Shown here piece after piece: positions 3,336 to 21,446 of a stretch of DNA of 26,176 bases. The first letter of the stretch is position 1; the number at the start of each line of letters is the position of its first letter. Origin of the DNA: a virus; the IMG/VR virus record IMGVR_UViG_3300024517_000097, positions 1 to 26,176 of that record; one strand, written 5' to 3'. A program made the position numbers and the translations under genes. A model generated the notes under the pieces. That model did not search any database. It saw nothing but the letters and a program-made list of their open reading frames with translations, and had not been told where the DNA came from.

Positions 3336-4154
3336 TTATCCCCCCATCCCGAACGCACCACCGGCAATACTTCCAAAGGCGCCTATGGCAGCCCCGGATA
3401 GGGCAGCTTTGTTGTTAGCGTTGGCGATGTTTGCCGCACTGGCAGCGTTGAAATTGGTGTTATACACGTCTGATGCGTAGCCGGACTCTGGGTTGAATAG
3501 ATTGCCTGGGTTAAGTGAGTTCGCTTGGCCAAACACGGATCCACCTTCCAGCGGGTTGCGTCCTGACCGGCCTAGAATGGCTAAAAATGGATCGGCAGAA
3601 GTTGCCTGGTTGAGCCCCACCACTCGATCTGCGAAACCCCTCGACTGATTGCGGTATCTATCATACTCACTTGCCGTGAACCGGGCCTCATTAAACACAT
3701 CTGACGGTCCCATGCCAAACCCTCTTGCCGACTGTCCAGCCCGTATTGCCTGCTGAGATTCGCGCAGTAGCCCAGCGTCCATGCCTCCCGATTGCAAACC
3801 TGCTAGTGCTTGTGTGTTCATTTCTGCCATCAAAGCTGCCTGTTCTGGATTGGCGGCCCTAAATGCTTCCATGGCCCTAGTGCCAAGATCTTCTACGTCA
3901 GTTAAATCTGCCTCGCGTTGAGAGCGGTTGCTGGTTTCGGCAATAGTGTCTAGTTCACTGGACGCACTTTTAAACAGCTCCAACATTTGCGGGGTCATAG
4001 TCTTAGCTATGTCCATGTCTAGCTGGGCGTATTGGGGCCGAAACTCTCTTTCAGCGTCAAATTTATCGCCTGCCAGATCGTATTGTGCTTGGAGGGTTTC
4101 TCGCGTCTCGTCGTAATAGTTGCGAGGCTCAACAGGTTCTACTTTAGATCCCAT
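3336..4154 (-). CDS. Internal virion / ejection protein, first of three (gp14-like position)
   Basis: The 272-residue product is helical at the start (YYDETRETLQAQYDLAGDKF) and Gln/Ala/Met-rich in the middle (NPEQAALMAEMNTQALAGLQ, ARGFGMGPSDVFNEARF). The tail is Gly/Ala-rich and hydrophobic (AALSGAAIGAFGSIAGGAFG). In podoviruses, such proteins lie in the head or tail and form part of the channel that carries DNA across the envelope. The hydrophobic end would suit insertion into a membrane. The identification comes from composition, size and order (three such genes after the fibres), not from a clear family signature. A Gly-rich C-terminus of this kind is common in such proteins. Confidence 0.68.
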   Translation of the reverse strand: MGSKVEPVEPRNYYDETRETLQAQYDLAGDKFDAEREFRPQYAQLDMDIAKTMTPQMLELFKSASSELDTIAETSNRSQREADLTDVEDLGTRAMEAFRAANPEQAALMAEMNTQALAGLQSGGMDAGLLRESQQAIRAGQSARGFGMGPSDVFNEARFTASEYDRYRNQSRGFADRVVGLNQATSADPFLAILGRSGRNPLEGGSVFGQANSLNPGNLFNPESGYASDVYNTNFNAASAANIANANNKAALSGAAIGAFGSIAGGAFGMGG

Positions 4155-4488
4155 ATAATATCTTTCTTTCTACTGCGTCAGTCTTGTAAATTTTCAAACG
4201 GTCCCTTCTGTGCCATGCGAGCCACGGCAGTCTATATGGTGTGATTTGGACAAACCTTTTGAGGGGTCGATTTCCTGCCGCCGTCCAAACAAACCAGCAA
4301 TTCTTGACAGCAAACTCCGCTTCGATCTTGAGGAACTTGTGGGGCTCGTCGACATTGACCGGTCGTGCCATGATGAACTCTGTAGGACTGGACCACACGC
4401 ATCCATACTGCATATGTAACATGAGGTCGGTGGCAAATGGCCGGTCTTTAGGTTCATATAGTTTAAGCGCATGTTCGAGTGGAGTCAA
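4144..4488 (-). CDS. Hypothetical phage protein with TTG start
   Basis: The 114-residue protein has no ATG at its beginning. TTG 4488, one base after the previous TAA (TAATTTG), gives MTPLEHALKLYEPKDRPFAT. Conserved-looking parts are FIMARPVNVDEPHKFLKIEA and the C-terminal LPWLAWHRRDRLKIYKTDA. That W-x-RR-x-R pattern is seen in small proteins of unknown function near phage tail genes. It is basic and aromatic, with no membrane segment. Its stop overlaps the start of the first ejection protein by 11 bases. Confidence 0.7.
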   Translation of the reverse strand: MTPLEHALKLYEPKDRPFATDLMLHMQYGCVWSSPTEFIMARPVNVDEPHKFLKIEAEFAVKNCWFVWTAAGNRPLKRFVQITPYRLPWLAWHRRDRLKIYKTDAVERKILYGI

Positions 4489-4489
4489 A

Positions 4490-5572
4490 TTATAGTAGTT
4501 CTAATACTCGGCATCTGACATTACCAAACCCTGTGCCTGAGCCAAACACCATGCCGGGAGTTGCGGCAGAGTTGACGTGGATTGTTCTAGCATTTGTGAT
4601 AGCATCCGGCACAATGAATACGCTGATGTAAACTGTTCCTGTCTCAGTGCTAGTAGTAAACCAACCCTTGGCGCTTACGTGATACAAATAGTCGCTACTG
4701 CTCGTTGTTACAAAATATGTTGGGCCTCCTGCAAGTTTCGTGGTGTGGGCATCTGCGGCAGTGTTGTAAGCAATCAATACGCACTCAGTTGCTGGTGTGC
4801 CTCCCCCTTCTGCGAGATAGGCAAAATCACACTCGACCCATATCTTGGAACTCTCGTGGACTTTGGTGTATGAGAATTGTGCGATTAGTGGTGTGTTGGT
4901 CAGTCCATCATGGTATGCCAAGGCCGTGTCGATGTTTGAGTTGCCTGACTCGGGATGGAAAAATAAATTGTTGGCGCCACCAGGTTCTGGGATTGCGTCC
5001 ATGTCCAACGAGAAAGCAGTATCGTTAGAAAAGTATGCTGCCGTTGCCCCACCAATGCCGTTAAGTGTTGCGTAGTTAACCGGGTTGCCGCTACTGTCGA
5101 TGATAGGCACTCGCTCTACACCAGTGATAGTTGTGTCCTCGGTCAGTCCATTGAATTGAATCTTTGCCGTAGTGACCGAATCGTTTGCCAGCATGGCTGT
5201 TTCAACTGCTCCGGCCTGGATTGTTGCGGCGCCCGTACTGTCTACCACGACGTCTCCTGAGATAGTGTATGCAACAGCCGTGTTGGCAGTAGATCCGATT
5301 AGAAATTGTCCCGCTGTTAAAATCGTTTCGGCAGCCAGACCACTAGTGTTGCCGACTAACACCTTACCTTCTGCCAGGGCAATCTTGGTTGAGGTGATAT
5401 CGGCAGTGCCAGAGATGTGTTCGTTTTTAACGCTACCGGCAGCCAAGCTTTGTCCTGCTACGGATCCCTGGATTGTCACGGTTGGTTTGGCTAGTTGGTT
5501 CAGCTTGGCCTTGGTGACATCCTCGGTCGCATTGAAGTCGTAGCCTGGTGTTAGTGCTGCTGAGATTGACAT
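4490..5572 (-). CDS. Fibre-like protein, paralogue 2
   Basis: This 360-residue protein is a full-length paralogue of the previous gene. It has the N-terminal anchor MSISAALTPGYDFNATEDVT then KAKLNQLAKPTV, followed by ITSTKIALAEGKVLVGNTSG, the junction GAVETAMLANDSVTTAKI and the same C-terminal beta domain (LIAQFSYTKVHESSKIWVEC, YHVSAKGWFTTSTETGTVYI, PGMVFGSGTG). It lacks the poly-serine run. The pair probably arose by tandem duplication and diverged, as expected for receptor-binding or decorating fibres. The gene starts one base after the paralogue's stop. Its stop lies next to a TTG start for the following gene. Confidence 0.78.
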   Translation of the reverse strand: MSISAALTPGYDFNATEDVTKAKLNQLAKPTVTIQGSVAGQSLAAGSVKNEHISGTADITSTKIALAEGKVLVGNTSGLAAETILTAGQFLIGSTANTAVAYTISGDVVVDSTGAATIQAGAVETAMLANDSVTTAKIQFNGLTEDTTITGVERVPIIDSSGNPVNYATLNGIGGATAAYFSNDTAFSLDMDAIPEPGGANNLFFHPESGNSNIDTALAYHDGLTNTPLIAQFSYTKVHESSKIWVECDFAYLAEGGGTPATECVLIAYNTAADAHTTKLAGGPTYFVTTSSSDYLYHVSAKGWFTTSTETGTVYISVFIVPDAITNARTIHVNSAATPGMVFGSGTGFGNVRCRVLELL

Positions 5573-5573
5573 A

Positions 5574-6758
5574 TTATTCGGGAGTAGCTACTTCGGTGAT
5601 AGTGCATTTTAAATTTTTGAGATCGCCATACATTTGCCCCGGCACTGAGGTTTTGTTGATCCAGTATTGCCTGCCTTGGACTGGGAAGACATCCGGCACA
5701 ACCCACACTGATATGTATACGTTGCCTGGGGCATCTGTGGTGCTAAAATATCCGCTGGGGGAACAATGCAGAACTTGGTATCTCAGCCCTTGACCCGGCA
5801 GATTGGTATCTGTAGAGACAATGTGTTTCGGGGGCGATATGATTTTTGCCGCAAACGTAGTAGAGCTTGTGCCGTAGGCAATGACAATAGACTCAACTGC
5901 CTTTGTTAAGAAGCCGTTGTATAACCGCATCAGAGCAAAGTCCATTTCTATCCATAGATCAGAGTTAGTGAGTTGCTTGGCATACGTCCATTGATGAATC
6001 ATCGGGATGCCATCAGTTTCTACATTGTTGTAGTTTTCACCCATGGCATGGTCTAGATCTACGTTGCCTGTTTCTAGATCAAACCACAAATCATCATCGG
6101 GTGCCGGGGGGATAGTTACTTTCTCATTTACGTTGTTCGATATATAACTAAACTCCACATCATCAGACAGCAAAACAGTATGCGTCCTATGAACATCTTT
6201 TGAGGTAACATAGCTGATTGGATCCCCAGTATTATTGATAATAGGTATCCTTTCCGCGCCATCCATATCTATGTCTTCCGTCAGCACCAACTGAACGGCA
6301 CTTTCATCGGCGGCATCGGTATCTAGCTCGGTAGTATCCACAGCATCATTTGCTATTGTGGCTTGAGCTACCAGCACACTTGAAGACGAGGACGATGAAG
6401 ACGACGATGAATAGGCCCAGGCAAGTGTCATATCCCCGCTGAGACTAACTGCCTCTGCCTTACTTGCGGCTGATCCGGCCAACAGTTCCGCTTCATCCAA
6501 ATCTTGTAGGTCGGCTTTGCCACTAGCATTACCTACATACACGTCGCCTCGGTCTAGAGAAAACTTAGTAGACGTAATGGCATCTTTCTCGGCACTGCTG
6601 AGATGTGTATCAGTTATATTATTAACAGTAAGCGCCAAGCTACCGATAGCCCCTTGCACGTCGATAGTAGGTTTGCCCAAAAGGTTTAGCTTCTCCCGTG
6701 TCACCTCTTCGTCATCGTCGAGAATGTGTCCTGGGAATATGTCTACTTCTGTTGCCAT
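5574..6758 (-). CDS. Fibre-like protein, paralogue 1, with poly-serine linker
   Basis: This 394-residue protein has the shared N-terminal anchor (PGHILDDDEEVTREKLNLLG, 9-28, then KPTIDVQG). A repeat-like region ITSTKFSLDRGDVYVGNASG (61-80) follows, then a run of 11 serines (117-127), and a large C-terminal beta domain (about 175-394). It matches the 360-residue neighbour along most of its length: GAERIPIINNTGDPISY against GVERVPIIDSSGNPVNY, and GNVYISVWVVPDV against GTVYISVFIVPDA. The C-terminal half looks like a jelly-roll carbohydrate-binding or tip domain. A receptor-binding role is inferred. Serines in the run use mostly TCN codons, as in a slipping repeat. Confidence 0.78.
   Translation of the reverse strand: MATEVDIFPGHILDDDEEVTREKLNLLGKPTIDVQGAIGSLALTVNNITDTHLSSAEKDAITSTKFSLDRGDVYVGNASGKADLQDLDEAELLAGSAASKAEAVSLSGDMTLAWAYSSSSSSSSSSSVLVAQATIANDAVDTTELDTDAADESAVQLVLTEDIDMDGAERIPIINNTGDPISYVTSKDVHRTHTVLLSDDVEFSYISNNVNEKVTIPPAPDDDLWFDLETGNVDLDHAMGENYNNVETDGIPMIHQWTYAKQLTNSDLWIEMDFALMRLYNGFLTKAVESIVIAYGTSSTTFAAKIISPPKHIVSTDTNLPGQGLRYQVLHCSPSGYFSTTDAPGNVYISVWVVPDVFPVQGRQYWINKTSVPGQMYGDLKNLKCTITEVATPE
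6378..6410 (-). repeat. Poly-serine codon run
   Basis: Eleven consecutive serine codons (ten TCN and one AGT) encode residues 117-127 of the fibre-like protein. The plus strand reads as imperfect GAC/GAT/GAA trinucleotide repeats. The paralogue has no such run at the aligned place. Confidence 0.9.
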
Positions 6759-6764
6759 GCTAGT

Positions 6765-7646
6765 CTATACCGCTTCCACTATAATCCCAATATTTTCCAG
6801 GGCACTGATGATTGAGTCAATGGCAGTCCTAGCTTCGGAATCTTGGGTGCTGCCGCCAGTTGGTGAGTTAATGACGGATGCCTGGACAGTAGGAGTTTGA
6901 CCATACATACCTATTGTGCTGCCATCGCCTATTTGGAATACGCTCGTGCCGTTGTCCGTGAAGTCCGCTATATCCCCAGTGCTTGTTTGGTTTACAATTA
7001 ATGTCGTTGTCGTATCTTGTGCTGTGACATTTAGATGACCGTCTGACAGAGTAGCATCCCCCGCCTGTAGAGCTATAAAACCGTTTACCATGTCGATGTT
7101 GCCCAATGGTATGTGTAGACTCAGTATCTCTCCTCCGGATCCAACGTATAATCCTTTGGTAGCCTGAACTCCATTATCATCGTCGTAGTAGATATATGAT
7201 ACATCTGTTTTTGGCACCCCAGAACTGCTCGCGTAAGGAATGGACTGATTCGCCCAAGCGCCCATCCCCGTACCCCCACTTGCCGGGGTAATGGGTATGC
7301 CAGCAGATATAGTGCTAATCACCGCAGCCGAGGCAACGATGTTGGTGACATATAAATTGCGAAATATTTTTGCTGGTATGAGCGAACCGAGGTCTACGGT
7401 ATTAGTGACGGCAGGTAGTATGTGCCCGGTCACGGTAGAGGTTCCGGTATTAACAAACTCCGCTGTGTTTAGTGCTGTAAAATATCCATTGGAAAAAGGA
7501 ACCCCAGACGAACCGATATCTGCCGCATCACCCGTCTCCCGAAACACACCAGTGTCTACGTATATCGCATTAATAGGGTCGCTCGATGTCCCAATATCAA
7601 TCTGGTGTAAGTCATCTATTACAATTGACGAAAGCAGTCTCGGCAT
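6765..7646 (-). CDS. Tail fibre protein with LGS-type repeats
   Basis: The 293-residue protein has three related stretches in its N-terminal third: DIGTSSDPINAIYVDTGV (17-34), DIGSSGVPFSNGYFTALN (43-60) and DLGSLIPAKIFRNLYVTN (85-102). This repeat is typical of trimeric fibre shafts. PASGGTGMGAWANQSIPYAS (121-140) is the common GGTG linker. The C-terminal MYGQTPTVQASV...SEARTAIDSIISALENIGII (247-289) is a widespread phage fibre end, probably a trimerising helix. The gene begins one base after the previous stop and ends six bases before the next start. Fibre identity is well supported, and the target is unknown. Confidence 0.8.
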   Translation of the reverse strand: MPRLLSSIVIDDLHQIDIGTSSDPINAIYVDTGVFRETGDAADIGSSGVPFSNGYFTALNTAEFVNTGTSTVTGHILPAVTNTVDLGSLIPAKIFRNLYVTNIVASAAVISTISAGIPITPASGGTGMGAWANQSIPYASSSGVPKTDVSYIYYDDDNGVQATKGLYVGSGGEILSLHIPLGNIDMVNGFIALQAGDATLSDGHLNVTAQDTTTTLIVNQTSTGDIADFTDNGTSVFQIGDGSTIGMYGQTPTVQASVINSPTGGSTQDSEARTAIDSIISALENIGIIVEAV

Positions 7647-7647
7647 G

Positions 7648-9285
7648 TTATCCGGTTACAATTACTCGATATTCACCCGCGCTAGGGGCAAGGTTGAAGC
7701 TTAAAGTTATGGTGTTGGTGCTGGTTCGTTCTACGTCACAGATTACAGTCTCGTATGGAGAGGCAACGGTGTATAGTTCTACGGTCACGTCTCGGGTGCC
7801 AAGGTTGTGGGTGATTACTTCAGTTGCTGTGCCGCCCGTGATAGTCACTACGTATCGGCCAAACCCGGTCATATTACCCCAGGCAAGATAGTAGCTGCCT
7901 TCCTGGTCATCCAGCTTATCGGCATTTAGATTGGAGACCTTAGTAGTAGAGGCAACAATGAGTGGCGCTGTGCCTGTGGCAATATCCGATTCAAATGATT
8001 CTGCCGTCAGCTTGTAAGACCCAATATCCCATGCCGCATTGACAGTGATGTGTGTCTGGTTGATTGCCGTCCAAGCAGGAACTGCCGCTACTCCACCCGT
8101 TGACTCAGACAACAGAAACACGGGGTTGTTGGAAGTGTCGCCCCCAAGCTTTGCTAAAACAGGAGAGGCATCCCCAACTAGTATGTCGCCCTTTGTATAT
8201 GACGTAATGTTGGTGCCGCCATTTGCCTGGGGCAATGTCCCGTTGACTGCGGCAGACTGAGCTAATTCTATTGCCCCGAAACTAGGCACGGCAGAACCAT
8301 TGGCTCGCAACACCTGGTAGTTGGCAGGGGCAGAGATAAATCCTATAGTCGAGGTGCCCGAGCAGTATGGTAGGTCGTATTGAGTATAGCTGCCGCTCTG
8401 TGCAAATGACACAGTAGACCCAGTTACATCAATACCATTGCCTGCCGTGAGTCCAGACAGATCGAAAACTTTAATCCACGGCACAGACTCATATGTTCCT
8501 GGCGCATCACCGGGATCCCATATCGGGTCGGTCCCAGCAGAATCAATTTGGCATAGCCAGCCAGTGCCTGATAGCGTGTCGCCGCTCGTAACAATAGTGT
8601 ATGCTGCCGTCAGTTCGGCAATAGTATCAGACGCCGTAGACCTGGCCCATATTCCTGCCGCCGCTAAGTAAATACCGTTCTCTTCTACATTGGTTTGGTC
8701 TTTGACAAGGATCCGGTTAGTTGCCGTTATAGTGGCAGTTGTATCCATGCCCCCCAGTGAGGGTCCGAGCCCACCCGTTACAAGATCCACATTGCCGGTC
8801 GTGGTATACAGACAGTCAGTTTTTGATTGCCAATTTACAGCCGAGTCATCTACGTATTTCTTGGTAGCGGCATCTAAATCATTGCTTGGCGCTGTAATCC
8901 GCAGTCGCCCTGACGAGTCTCTAACCGCCACCTCTTCAGCCCCGGCAGGTAGTAGTGTTGCCGTCCATCCATCGAGCTTGTCTACATCCAGGTTTGCTAC
9001 TTTCGCAGTGCCAGATGCAACGGCAAACGGGGCTGCCCCACCCCCAACTCCGTTAAACGTCCACAAGGCAGAAATGGTTTCGGCACTCTCTAGTTGCGGG
9101 ATGTTGTAGTATGTGCTGGTCGATGTGGCATTGTAGCCGATGTGATCACTTGAGGTATCGTAGTAAAGCCTGCCCTTGTCGTGGTTGGACGCAGGCGCCC
9201 CGCTCTGATTCTGTAGCCGGAGATTCATTATCTCATTCCGGTTCATGTCCAGATCTACGGTAAATTGTCTACTGTATGTGCCCAT
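7648..9285 (-). CDS. Tail fibre protein
   Basis: This 545-residue protein has classic fibre signatures. AATKKYVDDS (139-148) is widespread in phage fibres, NRILVKDQTNVEENGIYLAA (190-209) is a common repeat segment, and GTLPQANGGTNITSYTKGD (349-367) is another. LNADKLDD (453-460) is a copy of the LNADLLDG-type repeat, and VANLDVDKLDGW (96-107) is a second copy. The C-terminal domain (VITHNLGTRDVTVELY and the following 40 residues) resembles the end of the 148-residue gene. The N-terminus FTVDLDMNRNEIMNLRLQN probably attaches to the tail. Receptor binding is likely but unproven. It begins at a TAATG junction and ends one base before the next ATG. Confidence 0.85.
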   Translation of the reverse strand: MGTYSRQFTVDLDMNRNEIMNLRLQNQSGAPASNHDKGRLYYDTSSDHIGYNATSTSTYYNIPQLESAETISALWTFNGVGGGAAPFAVASGTAKVANLDVDKLDGWTATLLPAGAEEVAVRDSSGRLRITAPSNDLDAATKKYVDDSAVNWQSKTDCLYTTTGNVDLVTGGLGPSLGGMDTTATITATNRILVKDQTNVEENGIYLAAAGIWARSTASDTIAELTAAYTIVTSGDTLSGTGWLCQIDSAGTDPIWDPGDAPGTYESVPWIKVFDLSGLTAGNGIDVTGSTVSFAQSGSYTQYDLPYCSGTSTIGFISAPANYQVLRANGSAVPSFGAIELAQSAAVNGTLPQANGGTNITSYTKGDILVGDASPVLAKLGGDTSNNPVFLLSESTGGVAAVPAWTAINQTHITVNAAWDIGSYKLTAESFESDIATGTAPLIVASTTKVSNLNADKLDDQEGSYYLAWGNMTGFGRYVVTITGGTATEVITHNLGTRDVTVELYTVASPYETVICDVERTSTNTITLSFNLAPSAGEYRVIVTG

Positions 9286-9731
9286 TAGTTAAGGTATGCT
9301 GTGCCTGATTCGGTAGTATTGAAAGAGTATGTCAGCGCATTGACGCTTGTATAATCTAGTTGGCCGAGTAGTTCGTTGCCCAGGCTGTTCACGACTGTTA
9401 TGTTTGGATAGGCATCTAGGTTATGTGTTATCGTCCATACTGCTGTCGGGCTCGCTTGGACGTGAGTATATTTGTTAGCGAAAGATATCGCAGACCCCCA
9501 TGCCCCGGCTGCCTTGGGACCATAGAGGCCAAAAGTAGTTTTGTTGAGGTAGTAATCCCCATCGTCGCCCAGAGTTGAAGCAGGGACCCCATTGCCTGCC
9601 AGAAATTTAGAATCGACAAAGTTAGCTAGTGTAATCGACGGCGAACCAAGGGCGTTCAATCGTGCCAGGGTTATAGTGTCATCCCCTGCCGTGAACTGGT
9701 AGCCAGGAACTATAGTTGCCGAGAGTGACAT
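9285..9731 (-). CDS. Short tail fibre/attachment protein with modular ends
   Basis: The 148-residue product has the N-terminus MSLSATIVPGYQFTAGDD then TITLARLNALGSPSI, shared with the 360- and 394-residue proteins. The middle has GDDGDYYLNKTTFGLYGPKA, a motif common in phage fibre and adaptor proteins. The C-terminal domain (VWTITHNLDAYPNITVVNSL, ALTYSFNTTESGTAYL) resembles the C-terminal domain of the 545-residue neighbour. It therefore looks like a minimal fibre: virion anchor, short linker and tip. Both ends are TAATG junctions. Receptor or fibre-stacking role is inferred. Confidence 0.75.
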   Translation of the reverse strand: MSLSATIVPGYQFTAGDDTITLARLNALGSPSITLANFVDSKFLAGNGVPASTLGDDGDYYLNKTTFGLYGPKAAGAWGSAISFANKYTHVQASPTAVWTITHNLDAYPNITVVNSLGNELLGQLDYTSVNALTYSFNTTESGTAYLN

Positions 9732-12604
9732 TATGTTTTACTGCCAAATAGCCCTTGCCCCGTGAGAGAATCTACGGTTGCCTCTTTTATCCGTATTCGG
9801 CCTTGTGTGTTGACTACTTTGATTTGTCCGTATTCGCTTTCACGCGCAGACACTCGATACTTCTCCTGAAAATCCTGTAGCCTGTTCGGGTTAAACCCAC
9901 TACCGGCCGATATTCCACTGTCTATATCCAACGAATAGTCTTCGCGGTAGGCAGTTCCATGATCATCGTTTACGTTGGTTGCGTCGTAGGCTACTTTAGT
10001 GAAGGGCCGGGTGTAGCGGGTGTTTGATTTTGTTTTGGCTGATACCAGGGTCTGTGTCTCGTTCACACCCTCTGTCTGGTAGCTGATAGTGTAGCTCGGT
10101 TTCCATGTTGCCAAGTTCAGCCGCGCCACTGTTCCGAACCTATATTCTTTGCTAGGCGCTCGGTATCCTCGGGTAGTGAGAGTTGTGTCAATATCTTCCC
10201 GGCCATTGTAGTTGCTAGAGCTAGTGTTTCTGGCATCGTCTCCATCAAATGCCTCTTCCATCAAATTGATATACCCATCGGCATCGGCAAATAGAAGCCT
10301 GCTTACGCCCCCGACTGGGCCAATCAAGAACTCAGTAGCCCTCATTGCCGGGTGGGCGCCGGATCCATAATCAACGCCACTCCATTGCTTGTTCAAAAAG
10401 TCATATACCAGGATCGCATTGTTCTCACCTTCTACGGCACGTTTGATTGTGCTTGTTACCGGGATGCTTTGCGGATCCAGCAATAGTTTGTCGCCAGTTT
10501 CCAGCAACAGATAGTCACCAGTCTCTAGCAACAGGGCGCCACTATTTGATTCTGCCGGACCCTGAACAGTCATGGACTCACTATTAGTTGTCCAAGAAAA
10601 TGAGGTAGTGGGGGTTGTGGTTAGTAGCCCAGTCCAATCGTCGCTGTAGATACCCAACGTAGCGGCATCAACCCCTGGCTCGAATCTGTATTTCTGACCG
10701 ATGATCAGGTTGTCAACCAGTATAAGCCCACCATCAGGATACGAGGTGCTGGCAAAGACGTTTTCGGTCGCTTCGTTGTATGGAGATCCCAGCGGCACGG
10801 CAACAAACAGCTTATTGTCCCAGTAGGCCATGCGTATCTTGTGCCCGTAGCGCCAGTCGATGGAGTCAATGAGGGGCTGTATCGGTTTGGAAATTGGTTC
10901 GTCTACCCCAAACATCTCGCCTTGCTCTGTGTGCCGTAAGCTTACTACCCCCCGCCTATCGGACATGAACAACACATCTCTGCCTACCACGGCAAAGGCA
11001 CTTTTAGCTGATAGCCCGTAGTCGGATATGAGCGATTTCAATACCGGTGTCGGAGTAGTGCCGCTATCAGAAGTAACAGAGGTAAGATAAAACACGCTCC
11101 TGTCCTTGAAGCAGATCACTTCGTTGTCACTGATGCTTGCCACATCCACTAGCTCGTCATCACTGCCCTGGTTGATCCGCATGTGGTTAGTGAAATACGT
11201 AGTCGTCGGATCCAGGAAGTCGGTCAAAAATACAAAGTCAGTCTTGTCATAAGCGGCAGTTGGGCTACCAGACAGGTCGGCGGCAAATTTGTAGTTGCTG
11301 GTAAAAAGGATTCGGTTCTGTGCCGCTACCCCCCTTACGCCGTTTGGAGTCTGGGTGTATACTTGATCCCAGTTCGAGCCGGACGTTGGGTGGTTTACGT
11401 CTCTTGCCGTGGTGGCTGAACTACACTTGTAATAGTGAATCGCGTCAACAGCCTGATTGAAGGCAGCCCCACCCCAATAAGGAGATGCCATTGTGCTATC
11501 TCGTGGACCCCATAGCGCCTCTGCGGTAGTGTCCCAATATAGGTTATCATCTCCTGTGCTGCCCACACCTGGATCCCCAGCGGCACTATATAACGTCCTC
11601 ACTGAGCCGGTCGGCAAATCTTCGTCTAGGTAATTGCTTAAATCGAATCGGAAATGGTCATCGTGCCCGGTAACAGCCTCCATGTTATTCAGCACATCGG
11701 CAACTGTGAGTAACCCGGTTAGCGTGGTATCGCCCTTTGCCGCATCGGCATCTAGTTCAAACTTGCCTTCGCCCTCACCGGCATCTGGGAAAACCAAAAC
11801 ATCGCCAGAACTTAGGGCAGACGACAAGGCATCTACGGTAATGGTGCTGGCATTGACTGTTGCCGTTGCTTGGTTGAGCCGAACAACAAATCCCAGGTTA
11901 ATATCGACTCGTAGACTGGTTGTGTCGGCGGTATCGTTGTATAGGTCTACCTGGCTGCCCTCTTTAAACCCGTGTGCGGCAGTTGTTTTATACGTAATGA
12001 CTGAGCCAGTGAACCCAGTATCATAGGCAGCCGTAGAAAGCCCCACCTCTGTGCCCCACGACACAATGTCTTCGTTCTCGGAGACGGCATCATAGGCCAC
12101 GGCAGGATCATAGCGCCCTTTGAAGTTGGGAGACGCCGAAACAATATCCGACATGTCCAAAAATCCATCATCAATGTTGTTGAGCAAAAGCGGAGGCAGC
12201 CCAACCCCACGTAGCATCATCACAAACCCAGCAGACTGGACAAACTGCACATCAGCCCATATGCCTACGCCGCGAGGCAAGGTAAGTTCGACTGGAGTGT
12301 TGTTTTCTCTGGCCCAATAAACCTTACCATCGGCAGCAATGAGGTAATACAGTATCGAGTTCGGATCTCGAAAAACCCCCAACCCATAGATCTTGCCCCA
12401 AGGCGTAATGCGATAAGGATCGTGGTTTGCCCCTGATGTGTTTTGTAACCACACGGGACGAGTCACCCCTAGCCTAGTCGAAGCGACCCCATCTCTGAAG
12501 CGCATGTTACGTGCTTCTGAAACGAGGCCAGGACTAAGCCTACCTGGATCCACCCGCATATCAACGCCGATGAACCCTATGTCTCCGGTAGTTTCTACGG
12601 CCAT
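9731..12604 (-). CDS. Large tail hub / nozzle protein (tubular protein B or gp10-like)
   Basis: The 957-residue protein begins with DIGFIGVDMRVDPGRLSPGL followed by VSEARNMRFRDGVASTRLGV. This opening is known from tail nozzle and packaged-DNA-stabilising proteins of podoviruses, which fold as a beta-propeller that closes the tail tube. The rest is almost all beta, with repeated D/G/T-rich turns. A peptide of tandem LLLETGDY, LLLETGDK and LLLD units lies at residues 691-710. The order adaptor, hub, fibres matches T7 gp11, gp12 and fibres. The size is larger than T7 gp12 (about 794). The exact homologous group (gp10 or gp12) cannot be settled by eye. The stop overlaps the next ATG (TAATG). Confidence 0.78.
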   Translation of the reverse strand: MAVETTGDIGFIGVDMRVDPGRLSPGLVSEARNMRFRDGVASTRLGVTRPVWLQNTSGANHDPYRITPWGKIYGLGVFRDPNSILYYLIAADGKVYWARENNTPVELTLPRGVGIWADVQFVQSAGFVMMLRGVGLPPLLLNNIDDGFLDMSDIVSASPNFKGRYDPAVAYDAVSENEDIVSWGTEVGLSTAAYDTGFTGSVITYKTTAAHGFKEGSQVDLYNDTADTTSLRVDINLGFVVRLNQATATVNASTITVDALSSALSSGDVLVFPDAGEGEGKFELDADAAKGDTTLTGLLTVADVLNNMEAVTGHDDHFRFDLSNYLDEDLPTGSVRTLYSAAGDPGVGSTGDDNLYWDTTAEALWGPRDSTMASPYWGGAAFNQAVDAIHYYKCSSATTARDVNHPTSGSNWDQVYTQTPNGVRGVAAQNRILFTSNYKFAADLSGSPTAAYDKTDFVFLTDFLDPTTTYFTNHMRINQGSDDELVDVASISDNEVICFKDRSVFYLTSVTSDSGTTPTPVLKSLISDYGLSAKSAFAVVGRDVLFMSDRRGVVSLRHTEQGEMFGVDEPISKPIQPLIDSIDWRYGHKIRMAYWDNKLFVAVPLGSPYNEATENVFASTSYPDGGLILVDNLIIGQKYRFEPGVDAATLGIYSDDWTGLLTTTPTTSFSWTTNSESMTVQGPAESNSGALLLETGDYLLLETGDKLLLDPQSIPVTSTIKRAVEGENNAILVYDFLNKQWSGVDYGSGAHPAMRATEFLIGPVGGVSRLLFADADGYINLMEEAFDGDDARNTSSSNYNGREDIDTTLTTRGYRAPSKEYRFGTVARLNLATWKPSYTISYQTEGVNETQTLVSAKTKSNTRYTRPFTKVAYDATNVNDDHGTAYREDYSLDIDSGISAGSGFNPNRLQDFQEKYRVSARESEYGQIKVVNTQGRIRIKEATVDSLTGQGLFGSKT
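10475..10534 (-). repeat. Tandem LLLETGD peptide repeat in the hub protein
   Basis: Twenty codons encode LLLETGDYLLLETGDKLLLD (residues 691-710). The 9- to 10-residue unit is repeated twice and a third begins. The same peptide ends the 51-residue protein at 16804-16863 with only three differences. Confidence 0.9.
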
Positions 12605-14757: not shown

Positions 14758-16788
14758 TTAGATAGCTTCCCAATTGGTCACGTCGTAAGCCATGAAAGTC
14801 ACGTTGTTTGCGGCAGCTATTGTGCTCGCTGTGTCCACGCCACCACCATTGATGTTATCGCCAGAGGCAGGAAATACTTGTAGGGTGTTTGCGCCGTTGT
14901 TGATCACGACTACCTTTAACCCGATAACGGCAGAAGGCAGTGTCACGGTGTCGTTGGTATTGGCTACCGTAGCAACCTCATTCACCGATGTGGTTAGCGC
15001 CTGTTGCCCCTGGGTTTGGGTCACAGAGGCAGTGATGCCGGACGTAACTGAGCTGTATACGTATCCATCAAATCGAACATCCCCAGCATCTACGAATAGA
15101 GCATAGTTACTACCACCCTCTGTCGGGGCATTCGCGATATGAACGGTAGTTGCAATTGTCGCAGATCCAGATGTTTCCGTAATGGCGGGTTCGGTTATCC
15201 TAAGTGTGGCGACAACCCCATGCGCTCCACCTGAATTAATCACCGTCCCGTCTGGAGCAAATCGAACAGTAGACAAATCACTTGTCCCTCCGCTCGCAGT
15301 AATAACGCCCCGGCAATGGAGTTGGTGTCCACCGGAGGAACTAAAATCTCGATCAATTACCAAAGTATCCGCACTAGAAACCGCACTTCCGTTACCAACA
15401 GCCCCATAGCCTTCTAGATCGAAGTTGCCTCCTACGGTTAAAGGACCAGAAACAAGATCAAGCTCACCAGTGGATGCAAGAGTCATGCGCGTGCTTCCTG
15501 CCGTAACGAATCCCATGCCGTCAGTGGCGTGTGAATAAGTAATCTGCCCTCTCGCTCTTGTTGCGTCCGAAAACATTAATCCCCCGGAATCAGATGCCCC
15601 ATTAATGATATTGATGTATGCGTGAGTGGCATCTTCCAGAGTAAGAATATCGTTCGCCCCCGCCGCCGATCCACCAGCGCCCCGACTAACGTGCAATGAA
15701 CTTTCGGCTGCTGCCAAACCAATAGCGACATTACCATCAAATCGAGCATCACCAGCATCTACGAACAGCGCATAGTTACTACCGCCCTCTGTCGGTGCAT
15801 CCTGAATGTAAACCGTAGTGGCAATTGTCGCACTGCCAGAAGTCTCTGTAATCGCGGGTTCGACAACTGTAAGAGTTGACACTATGCCATGAGCGCCGCC
15901 AGAATTAATTACCGTACCTTCAGGATCGAAATTAACCTGTTGTAGATTGTTTGTGCCACTCGTAGCTGTGCCAATCCCGGCAACTGTAAGCTGGCGAATA
16001 GTGGCCCCTGAAAAGTCACGATCAATGATTAACGTGGTGTGCGAACCTAGCGACTGGCCGTTACCAACAGCCCCATAGCCTTCTAGGTCGAAATTACCTG
16101 CGACATCGAGAAGCGTTGCGGGGGTTTTGCCGATGCCGAAATTACCAGCGTTATCAATCCTCACGCGCTCAGTCAAACTATTCGACCCATCGGGAACTGT
16201 GTAGAACAGTAAGCGCCCCGGCATATCAGTAGTATCTGCTGCTGAATCAGGTGTCCCGTCAAGCTGTGCAAGAACTGCCGCCGAATTCACGAAATCAGTT
16301 GCCGCCCCTGAATAGCCCTGAAAATAAACCCCACCCAACGATTCACCGTCCGCAACTACTGTTGGTGATGCAATAGTCCCTCCGGCTTTACGAAGGTATA
16401 GAATCGCACTTTTAGTATTGGTGTTATTGTATGTCGAGAAGTAACCGTTCAAACTATTGTCTTTACTAAACTCGAAATCACCACCAGTCAAAACAACAAA
16501 CCGATCAGTCCCGTCCTCCTGCAATCGAAAATCCGTTGTCCCGGCATTGGCAACATCATAGTCAATAAGCATATCGGTCCCATTGAACGAAACAGCCCCA
16601 TCACTGCCGGTGCCGACTAGATACTTTTGTCCATCTTGTAGGATAGGATTGAACGGCAGCCCTGAAGTCTTGCCAAGTAGTTCCTCTAGTGCTATCCGTT
16701 TAGAAGTAGCCCCGTCAACAATATAAATATAATCTGTCGCCTGTGGATCTGTGACCAACGTAAGCGCACTGGTTTTTGTATCTGCCAT
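14758..16788 (-). CDS. Tail fibre protein with an internal duplication
   Basis: This 676-residue beta-rich protein is a fibre or spike. The opening KTSALTLVTDPQATDYIYIV (5-24) resembles virion-anchoring N-termini of fibres. The middle has repeats of DNAGNFGIGKTPATLLDVAG and AAESSLHVSRGAGG type that favour trimeric beta structures. Residues 231-352 and 454-575 are two ungapped copies, about 87 of 122 identical by hand count. The C-terminal domain (about 590-676; LKVVVINNGANTLQVFPASG, INGG, NWEAI) is a tip domain found in many phage fibres. Receptor binding or distal attachment is inferred. The gene starts 12 bases after the 51-residue gene, with no clear ribosome site, and ends next to a GTG start. 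Confidence 0.85.
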   Translation of the reverse strand: MADTKTSALTLVTDPQATDYIYIVDGATSKRIALEELLGKTSGLPFNPILQDGQKYLVGTGSDGAVSFNGTDMLIDYDVANAGTTDFRLQEDGTDRFVVLTGGDFEFSKDNSLNGYFSTYNNTNTKSAILYLRKAGGTIASPTVVADGESLGGVYFQGYSGAATDFVNSAAVLAQLDGTPDSAADTTDMPGRLLFYTVPDGSNSLTERVRIDNAGNFGIGKTPATLLDVAGNFDLEGYGAVGNGQSLGSHTTLIIDRDFSGATIRQLTVAGIGTATSGTNNLQQVNFDPEGTVINSGGAHGIVSTLTVVEPAITETSGSATIATTVYIQDAPTEGGSNYALFVDAGDARFDGNVAIGLAAAESSLHVSRGAGGSAAGANDILTLEDATHAYINIINGASDSGGLMFSDATRARGQITYSHATDGMGFVTAGSTRMTLASTGELDLVSGPLTVGGNFDLEGYGAVGNGSAVSSADTLVIDRDFSSSGGHQLHCRGVITASGGTSDLSTVRFAPDGTVINSGGAHGVVATLRITEPAITETSGSATIATTVHIANAPTEGGSNYALFVDAGDVRFDGYVYSSVTSGITASVTQTQGQQALTTSVNEVATVANTNDTVTLPSAVIGLKVVVINNGANTLQVFPASGDNINGGGVDTASTIAAANNVTFMAYDVTNWEAI
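15064..15429 (-). repeat. Copy B of the fibre internal repeat
   Basis: This stretch encodes fibre residues 454-575 and lies 669 bases downstream of copy A in the reading direction. The ends (GNFDLEGYGAVGNG, TVINSGGAHG, PAITETSGSATIATTV, APTEGGSNYALFVDAGD) are the same as in copy A, while the middle differs. Confidence 0.9.
15733..16098 (-). repeat. Copy A of the fibre internal repeat
   Basis: This stretch encodes fibre residues 231-352, beginning GNFDLEGYGAVGNG and ending LFVDAGDARFDG. It aligns without gaps to copy B, with most differences in a central variable stretch (residues 261-290). Confidence 0.9.
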
Positions 16789-21026: not shown

Positions 21027-21446
21027 CTACTGCCCTGGTGTCTTTCCCTTAGATGATTCACTGAGATACTCGGCTTTTGTTTTGAAGTCCGGCACCTTAC
21101 AGGATACAGGCAAATCATCCAGACTTCGGCTATAACTGCCTTCTTTCAATCGTTCCTCTGTGTCAACGGCACACATAAGATTCCAACATGCGGCAATTAA
21201 GTGATCTTCGTCCCGCTGCCCCTCTAGGTAACTAAAAGCATGGCGCAAGGCAGAGTCCATGTAGCGGCTCAGAGGTTGGCCCTTTTCCCAGTTGCGAGCA
21301 CCGTATTTGTCGCCGCCCCTTTCAAAATGTTGGGCCAAACGCTTGAGGGCTCGGGTAGGCAGTAGATCAAATCTGCCCTTACCTGTTCGGAGGTCACGCA
21401 CGGACCCGGTTTGAAATTCCTCTCGCTTGCCTGAATCTTTAATCAT
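21027..21446 (-). CDS. DUF5664 / dATP-dGTP diphosphohydrolase-like protein
   Basis: The 139-residue product has the signature of the DUF5664 family, annotated as the dATP/dGTP diphosphohydrolase N-terminal domain. It reads GKGRFDLLP (22-30), H40, KYGARNWEKG (47-56), RH (68-69), E75, DEDH (79-82) and N89. Acidic and histidine residues spaced on four helices are what an all-alpha NTP pyrophosphohydrolase needs for Mg-dNTP. Members would convert dATP/dGTP to the monophosphate plus pyrophosphate. In some phages such an enzyme supports 2-aminoadenine genomes. Family membership is recognised from motifs; the activity in this phage is inferred. The gene sits in a structural operon, and no purZ or DNA polymerase is in the window. 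The tail after residue 105 looks unstructured. Confidence 0.82.
   Translation of the reverse strand: MIKDSGKREEFQTGSVRDLRTGKGRFDLLPTRALKRLAQHFERGGDKYGARNWEKGQPLSRYMDSALRHAFSYLEGQRDEDHLIAACWNLMCAVDTEERLKEGSYSRSLDDLPVSCKVPDFKTKAEYLSESSKGKTPGQ

Follow-up and report, generated by a model that had tools for sequence, protein, structure and literature searches.

Three copies of a putative hub-docking anchor in a probable receptor-binding-protein slot of a phage

Positions 4490-9731 of the viral record analysed here hold an array of five contiguous genes on the minus strand, located between a gene for a hub-like protein and conserved downstream genes. This raises the question whether these genes encode five fibres with swapped anchor and tip modules, as proposed in the original prediction, or a set of proteins with different roles. 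The window, meaning the whole stretch of DNA that was analysed, is a linear IMG/VR record of 26,176 bases with the structural genes on the minus strand. Over 98% of its length, the encoded 546-aa large terminase-like protein resembles a Phage C75C1 protein, the major capsid protein belongs to the SU10 family (PF17236, E 1.5e-37), and a putative portal as well as large internal-type proteins are also encoded. A tblastn search with the 957-aa hub-like protein led to the annotations 'head closure' (Phage C75C1) and 'phage stabilization protein'. Based on this gene content, we infer a short-tailed phage. Scans of bacterial and archaeal genomes with the terminase and the anchor described below gave no match.

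Three further observations were made in the window. A simple motif check found a Shine-Dalgarno-like motif upstream of 4 of the 28 genes and of none of the five array genes, and this scarcity may hint at a host group perhaps not reliant on such sites. A 139-aa protein (21027-21446, minus strand) matches the N-terminal domain of a dATP/dGTP diphosphohydrolase (PF18909, E 7e-22). Upstream of the hub, a 676-aa fibre-like protein (14758-16788, minus strand) contains tandem similar segments of about 130 residues each (residues ~232-370 and ~455-590, both starting with NFDLEGYGAVGNG), which represent an internal duplication.

All five open reading frames claimed for the array are present on the minus strand at the positions originally given. 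They are intact, and adjacent genes overlap by one base or are separated by 1-6 bases. The features of the slot and its flanking genes are as follows:

9731..12604, minus strand: 957-aa hub-like protein, to which the anchors presumably dock (tblastn; homologues precede the anchored gene in relatives)
9285..9731, minus strand: 148-aa fibre-like protein, short, with anchor and HNL-type tip (homology of both ends)
9627..9731, minus strand: anchor core of the 148-aa protein, residues 1-35 (profile E 1.6e-17; predicted strand-helix-strand)
7648..9285, minus strand: 545-aa fibre- or decoration-type protein without the hub anchor (family matches of tip and middle module)
7651-7860, minus strand: C-terminal tip module of the 545-aa protein, residues 476-545 (phrog_2647, PDB 9nx3)
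6765..7646, minus strand: 293-aa protein, fibre-like by composition only (no significant family match)
5574..6758, minus strand: 394-aa anchored fibre-like protein (anchor profile E 3.9e-18; full-length paralogue of the 360-aa protein)
6654..6758, minus strand: anchor core of the 394-aa protein, residues 1-35 (blastp, anchor profile, shuffling)
4490..5572, minus strand: 360-aa anchored fibre-like protein (anchor profile E 1.6e-21; shaft matches in relatives)
5468..5572, minus strand: anchor core of the 360-aa protein, residues 1-35 (predicted strand-helix-strand as in the 148-aa protein)
4144..4488, minus strand: 114-aa conserved gene closing the slot (homologues after the anchored fibre in relatives, namely in L091, L118, L120, L121, L140, L156, L164 and L167)
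3336..4154, minus strand: 272-aa conserved gene (g272), used to mark the downstream side of the slot (profile matches in relatives, likewise after the slot)

In an all-against-all comparison of the array proteins, residues 1-49 of the 148- and 360-aa proteins were homologous (E 6e-8), while the N-terminal homology between the 148- and 394-aa proteins was weaker (E 8e-4). The local scores of the anchor links among these three proteins amounted to 61-99, compared to shuffle maxima of 37-44. The N-terminal pattern described earlier for the three proteins is thus shared as a module of about 35 residues, but none of them fits it letter for letter: the 148-aa protein has one extra residue, the 394-aa protein shows L for F and E for D, and the 360-aa protein ends with V for I. 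The C-terminal tip expected to be common to the 148- and 545-aa proteins was confirmed (35% over 69 residues, blastp E 3e-4); it comprises residues 77-146 of the 148-aa protein and reached a score of 81 compared to a maximum of 59 in 2000 shuffles. The GGTG linker assigned to the 545- and 293-aa proteins had to be discarded as a chance link, since the former has GGTN and the latter GGTG, and the score of 293 versus 545 was equalled or beaten in 149 of 500 shuffles. Altogether, the 293-aa protein showed no significant similarity to the other four array proteins in the all-against-all comparison.

A relationship overlooked earlier is that the 360- and 394-aa proteins share homology along their entire length (32% over 394 columns, E 3e-61), with about equal divergence of the anchor (33%) and the tip (34%). 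Since anchor and tip of this pair are alike in divergence and the 293-aa protein is unconnected, the idea of modules swapped across five genes fits the 148-aa protein alone, which has its anchor in common with the 360- and 394-aa proteins and its tip with the 545-aa protein. The 360/394 pair reflects a whole-gene relationship, and the 545-aa protein carries no hub anchor. Shaft residues of the 360-aa protein match the anchored fibres of the related loci L111, L112, L119, L120 and L121; no relatives were obtained when viral contigs were scanned with either the 394-aa protein or the C-terminal domain of the 360/394 pair. The shaft of the 394-aa protein (5574-6758, minus strand) comprises eleven consecutive serines at residues ~117-127, ten of them encoded by imperfect TCN codons as a trinucleotide tract, the length of which might be variable.

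In the predicted single-chain structure models, the anchor forms a strand-helix-strand in the 148-aa protein (pLDDT 82-93 over residues 1-40) and likewise in the 360-aa protein (pLDDT 59-82 over residues 1-40), and both models are confident in the anchor only and poor elsewhere. Accordingly, the predicted fold of the anchor is the same in two of the three anchored proteins. In PDB fold searches with the 148- and 360-aa models, no match reached E 0.001. The C-terminal region of the 360-aa model is beta-rich with TNF-like folds among the weak matches, which mean little at that confidence, and the top fold matches of this model were disregarded, as they cover low-confidence regions.

Next to the comparison within the array, the slot was compared among related phages. 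With a 50-residue anchor alignment as query, 14 IMG/VR contigs were obtained, and with a hub alignment 80 loci, the contigs being partly the same. By an iterated profile, the anchor was traced to 72 distinct IMG/VR contigs besides the window, in each case as the N-terminus of a gene located in the slot that follows the hub, so that the unrelated N-termini which would have spoken against a common anchor did not occur in the relatives. A slot was regarded as complete if it reached from the hub through the 272-aa marker gene, which was the case for 56 contigs. All 56 complete slots contained a single anchored gene, compared to three in the window, and when 26 of these contigs (31-61 kb) were searched over the whole record, one anchor apiece was found. 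These counts are not independent, as many contigs are near-duplicates; the anchors reduce to 61 distinct sequences, including the three window ones. Most complete slots have one small gene 3' of the anchored gene, and at least one gene lies between hub and anchored fibre in 35 of the 56. Since L117, L128, L138 and L140 have several slot genes with a single anchor, extra genes are not unique to the window; within this sample, extra anchors are. In a tree of the 61 distinct, short anchor sequences, the three window anchors were neither grouped nor resolved, and the tree thus gives no support for an origin of the 148-aa protein by duplication within the lineage.

The anchor core had no match in Pfam, PHROGs, the PDB or GenBank phages. 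The Pfam and PHROGs scans of the window proteins matched non-anchor parts only, and the anchor profile gave nothing meaningful against the PDB. Apparent anchor matches in cyanophages were rejected, because they reflect a generic shaft repeat beyond about residue 34, outside the anchor core. An early anchor profile gave no convincing match in 78 contigs with the same major capsid protein, many of which do not span the slot, and this set was put aside. Judged by these searches, the anchor family is seemingly undescribed so far.

Two other gene types were observed in the relatives. In L124, L132, L135 and L160 the post-hub gene begins like MPD.T..F..D..NGP.....T..E.I, and nothing recognisable of that kind is present in the window. 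In L140 (4017-5443), two adjacent slot genes encode proteins of 238 and 237 aa that start almost identically (MIFAPLHTGY.GLMGALDSVAVSVGS) and represent another tandem duplication in the fibre slot, without the hub anchor.

The turnover of modules was followed in pairs of relatives, leaving out pairs with fibres cut by a contig end (L112, L188). Where the hubs are 97-99% identical, the fibres are mostly 84-100% identical over the first ~100 residues and unrelated past ~125-150; this abrupt divergence next to near-identical hubs is found in the pairs L162/L168, L150/L152, L095/L096 and others. The converse was observed for L094 versus L186, with hubs 62% identical, anchors about 45% and the last ~150 residues 76-100%. 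Swaps are hence seen in both directions, and the expected division into an anchor and exchangeable tips is borne out in the relatives. For the 35 pairs with hubs at least 90% identical, the median identity was 0.91 for the anchors and 0.22 for the tips. Across 43 distinct loci, the rank correlation with hub distance amounted to 0.54 for the anchor and 0.20 for the tip, as predicted for a hub-docking anchor with exchangeable tips, which should track the hub more closely than the tips do. Since the distance of the g272 marker also tracks the anchor distance (rank correlation 0.61), shared descent alone could explain the hub-anchor correlation, and contact between the two is not proven by it. Altogether, two traits of anchored modular receptor-binding proteins are found, namely a conserved N-terminus next to a tail gene and a C-terminal part that is exchanged independently.

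The sequences show a constant anchor with exchangeable tips, present in one copy as the norm in the relatives and in three copies in the window. The region is probably a receptor-binding-protein slot that has grown from one gene to five, comprising three hub-docking fibres and two accessory proteins. The N-terminus of about 35 residues would dock a trimeric fibre onto the tail hub encoded directly upstream, and the shaft and C-terminal tip of each fibre would touch the host surface. The hub-docking fibres would be the short 148-aa protein and the 360- and 394-aa proteins as diverged whole-gene duplicates, and the 545- and 293-aa proteins would be fibre- or decoration-type proteins without that anchor. 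The anchored fibres may be present side by side or compete for shared hub sites, which would provide several receptor specificities per genome, and the particle may thus carry several alternative attachment proteins.

An array of five fibres, as predicted originally, is disfavoured by the two proteins without the hub anchor and by the resemblance of the 545-aa protein to a capsid decoration protein. The tip of the 545-aa protein (476-545) matches the head-decoration family phrog_2647 (E 5e-26) and PDB 9nx3 (E 2e-5), a capsid decoration protein of 242 aa. The middle module matches tail-fibre and virion structural families and, weakly, 9nx3, and in L147, a relative of the 545-aa protein is encoded outside the slot, on the upstream side of the hub. 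Accordingly, the 545-aa protein, and perhaps the 293-aa protein, could belong to the head, as a fibre or a capsid decoration protein whose gene only happens to lie in the slot; the tail-fibre array would then consist of the three anchored genes alone. Proteins annotated as tail fibres (phrog_11518; GenBank matches) contain these modules as well, and the gene position favours the tail. While it has the C-terminal HNLGT-type module in common with the 9nx3 protein, annotated as capsid, the 545-aa protein is more than twice as long and located in the fibre slot. We consider the head assignment a serious possibility that nonetheless falls short of being the favoured one, and it is compatible with the main explanation for the three anchored proteins. 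A segment related to the 545-aa middle module (residues 159-254) is inserted in the hub of L147 (9950-12079), which indicates mobility of the module between the hub and fibre or decoration proteins. For the 293-aa protein, the Pfam and PHROGs scans gave no significant family match and no phage match was found; it has three short DxGS-type repeats near the N-terminus (residues 17, 43 and 85).

The main rival to three separately docked fibres is a single branched fibre, in which the 148-aa protein would sit on the hub as an adaptor stub and the remaining proteins would be bound to it or to one another. The 148-aa protein is short and encoded directly after the hub, and similarly short anchored proteins are encoded in L117 (133 aa) and L128 (111 aa), where separate small genes come next. 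A precedent is given by Klebsiella phages of the KP32 and KP34 groups, which carry one to several receptor-binding proteins per phage in clusters with anchor and anchor-branch modes (PMC6872550). Like these clusters, the slot combines a conserved N-terminal anchor with an exchangeable C-terminal part and conserved genes interrupted by variable ones (PMC6872550). In Klebsiella phages, however, the second protein is joined via a branch domain and a short conserved peptide, whereas in the window three proteins have the same anchor of about 35 residues; moreover, depolymerase domains were not detected, and the searches run showed no relationship between the anchor sequences. Since the 394- and 360-aa proteins bear their own anchors, no branch point is needed, and no T4gp10-like family was reported for the array proteins in the Pfam and PHROGs scans. 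A branched assembly is considered rather unlikely.

The phages K1-5 and SP6 carry two tailspikes on one short-tailed particle via the adapter gp37 (PMC6966330). If the window fibres are co-displayed, different receptor-binding proteins would likewise be combined on one short-tailed particle, with the anchors on the fibres themselves instead of a separate adapter. No adapter protein was recognised in the window, where the 148-aa protein is a candidate by size and position only. It is very improbable that one or two genes are in use and the rest are kept as a reservoir of recombination material, since, although the frequent tip exchange in the relatives could be fed by extra cassettes, all five genes are intact and tightly packed, with each start within a few bases of the preceding stop, and the 360/394 pair shows conserved residues along the full length, as expected of maintained genes.

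Returning to the slot grown to three hub-docking fibres, phages with several fibres are already known, and the new aspect is this variant. It is quite possible, though slightly short of an even chance, that a compact hub-docking module of about 35 residues, common to many uncultured phages of a large short-tailed group, allows one hub to accept fibres that are interchangeable, and that its multiplication here resulted in three different fibres for one docking site, with neither adapter nor branch protein, and in a mixed-fibre particle. The small, well-delimited anchor family provides natural swap junctions across dozens of related phages together with a case of a multiplied anchor. A comparison of one-copy relatives with the three-copy window offers a handle on how a short-tailed phage shows several receptor-binding proteins on one hub.
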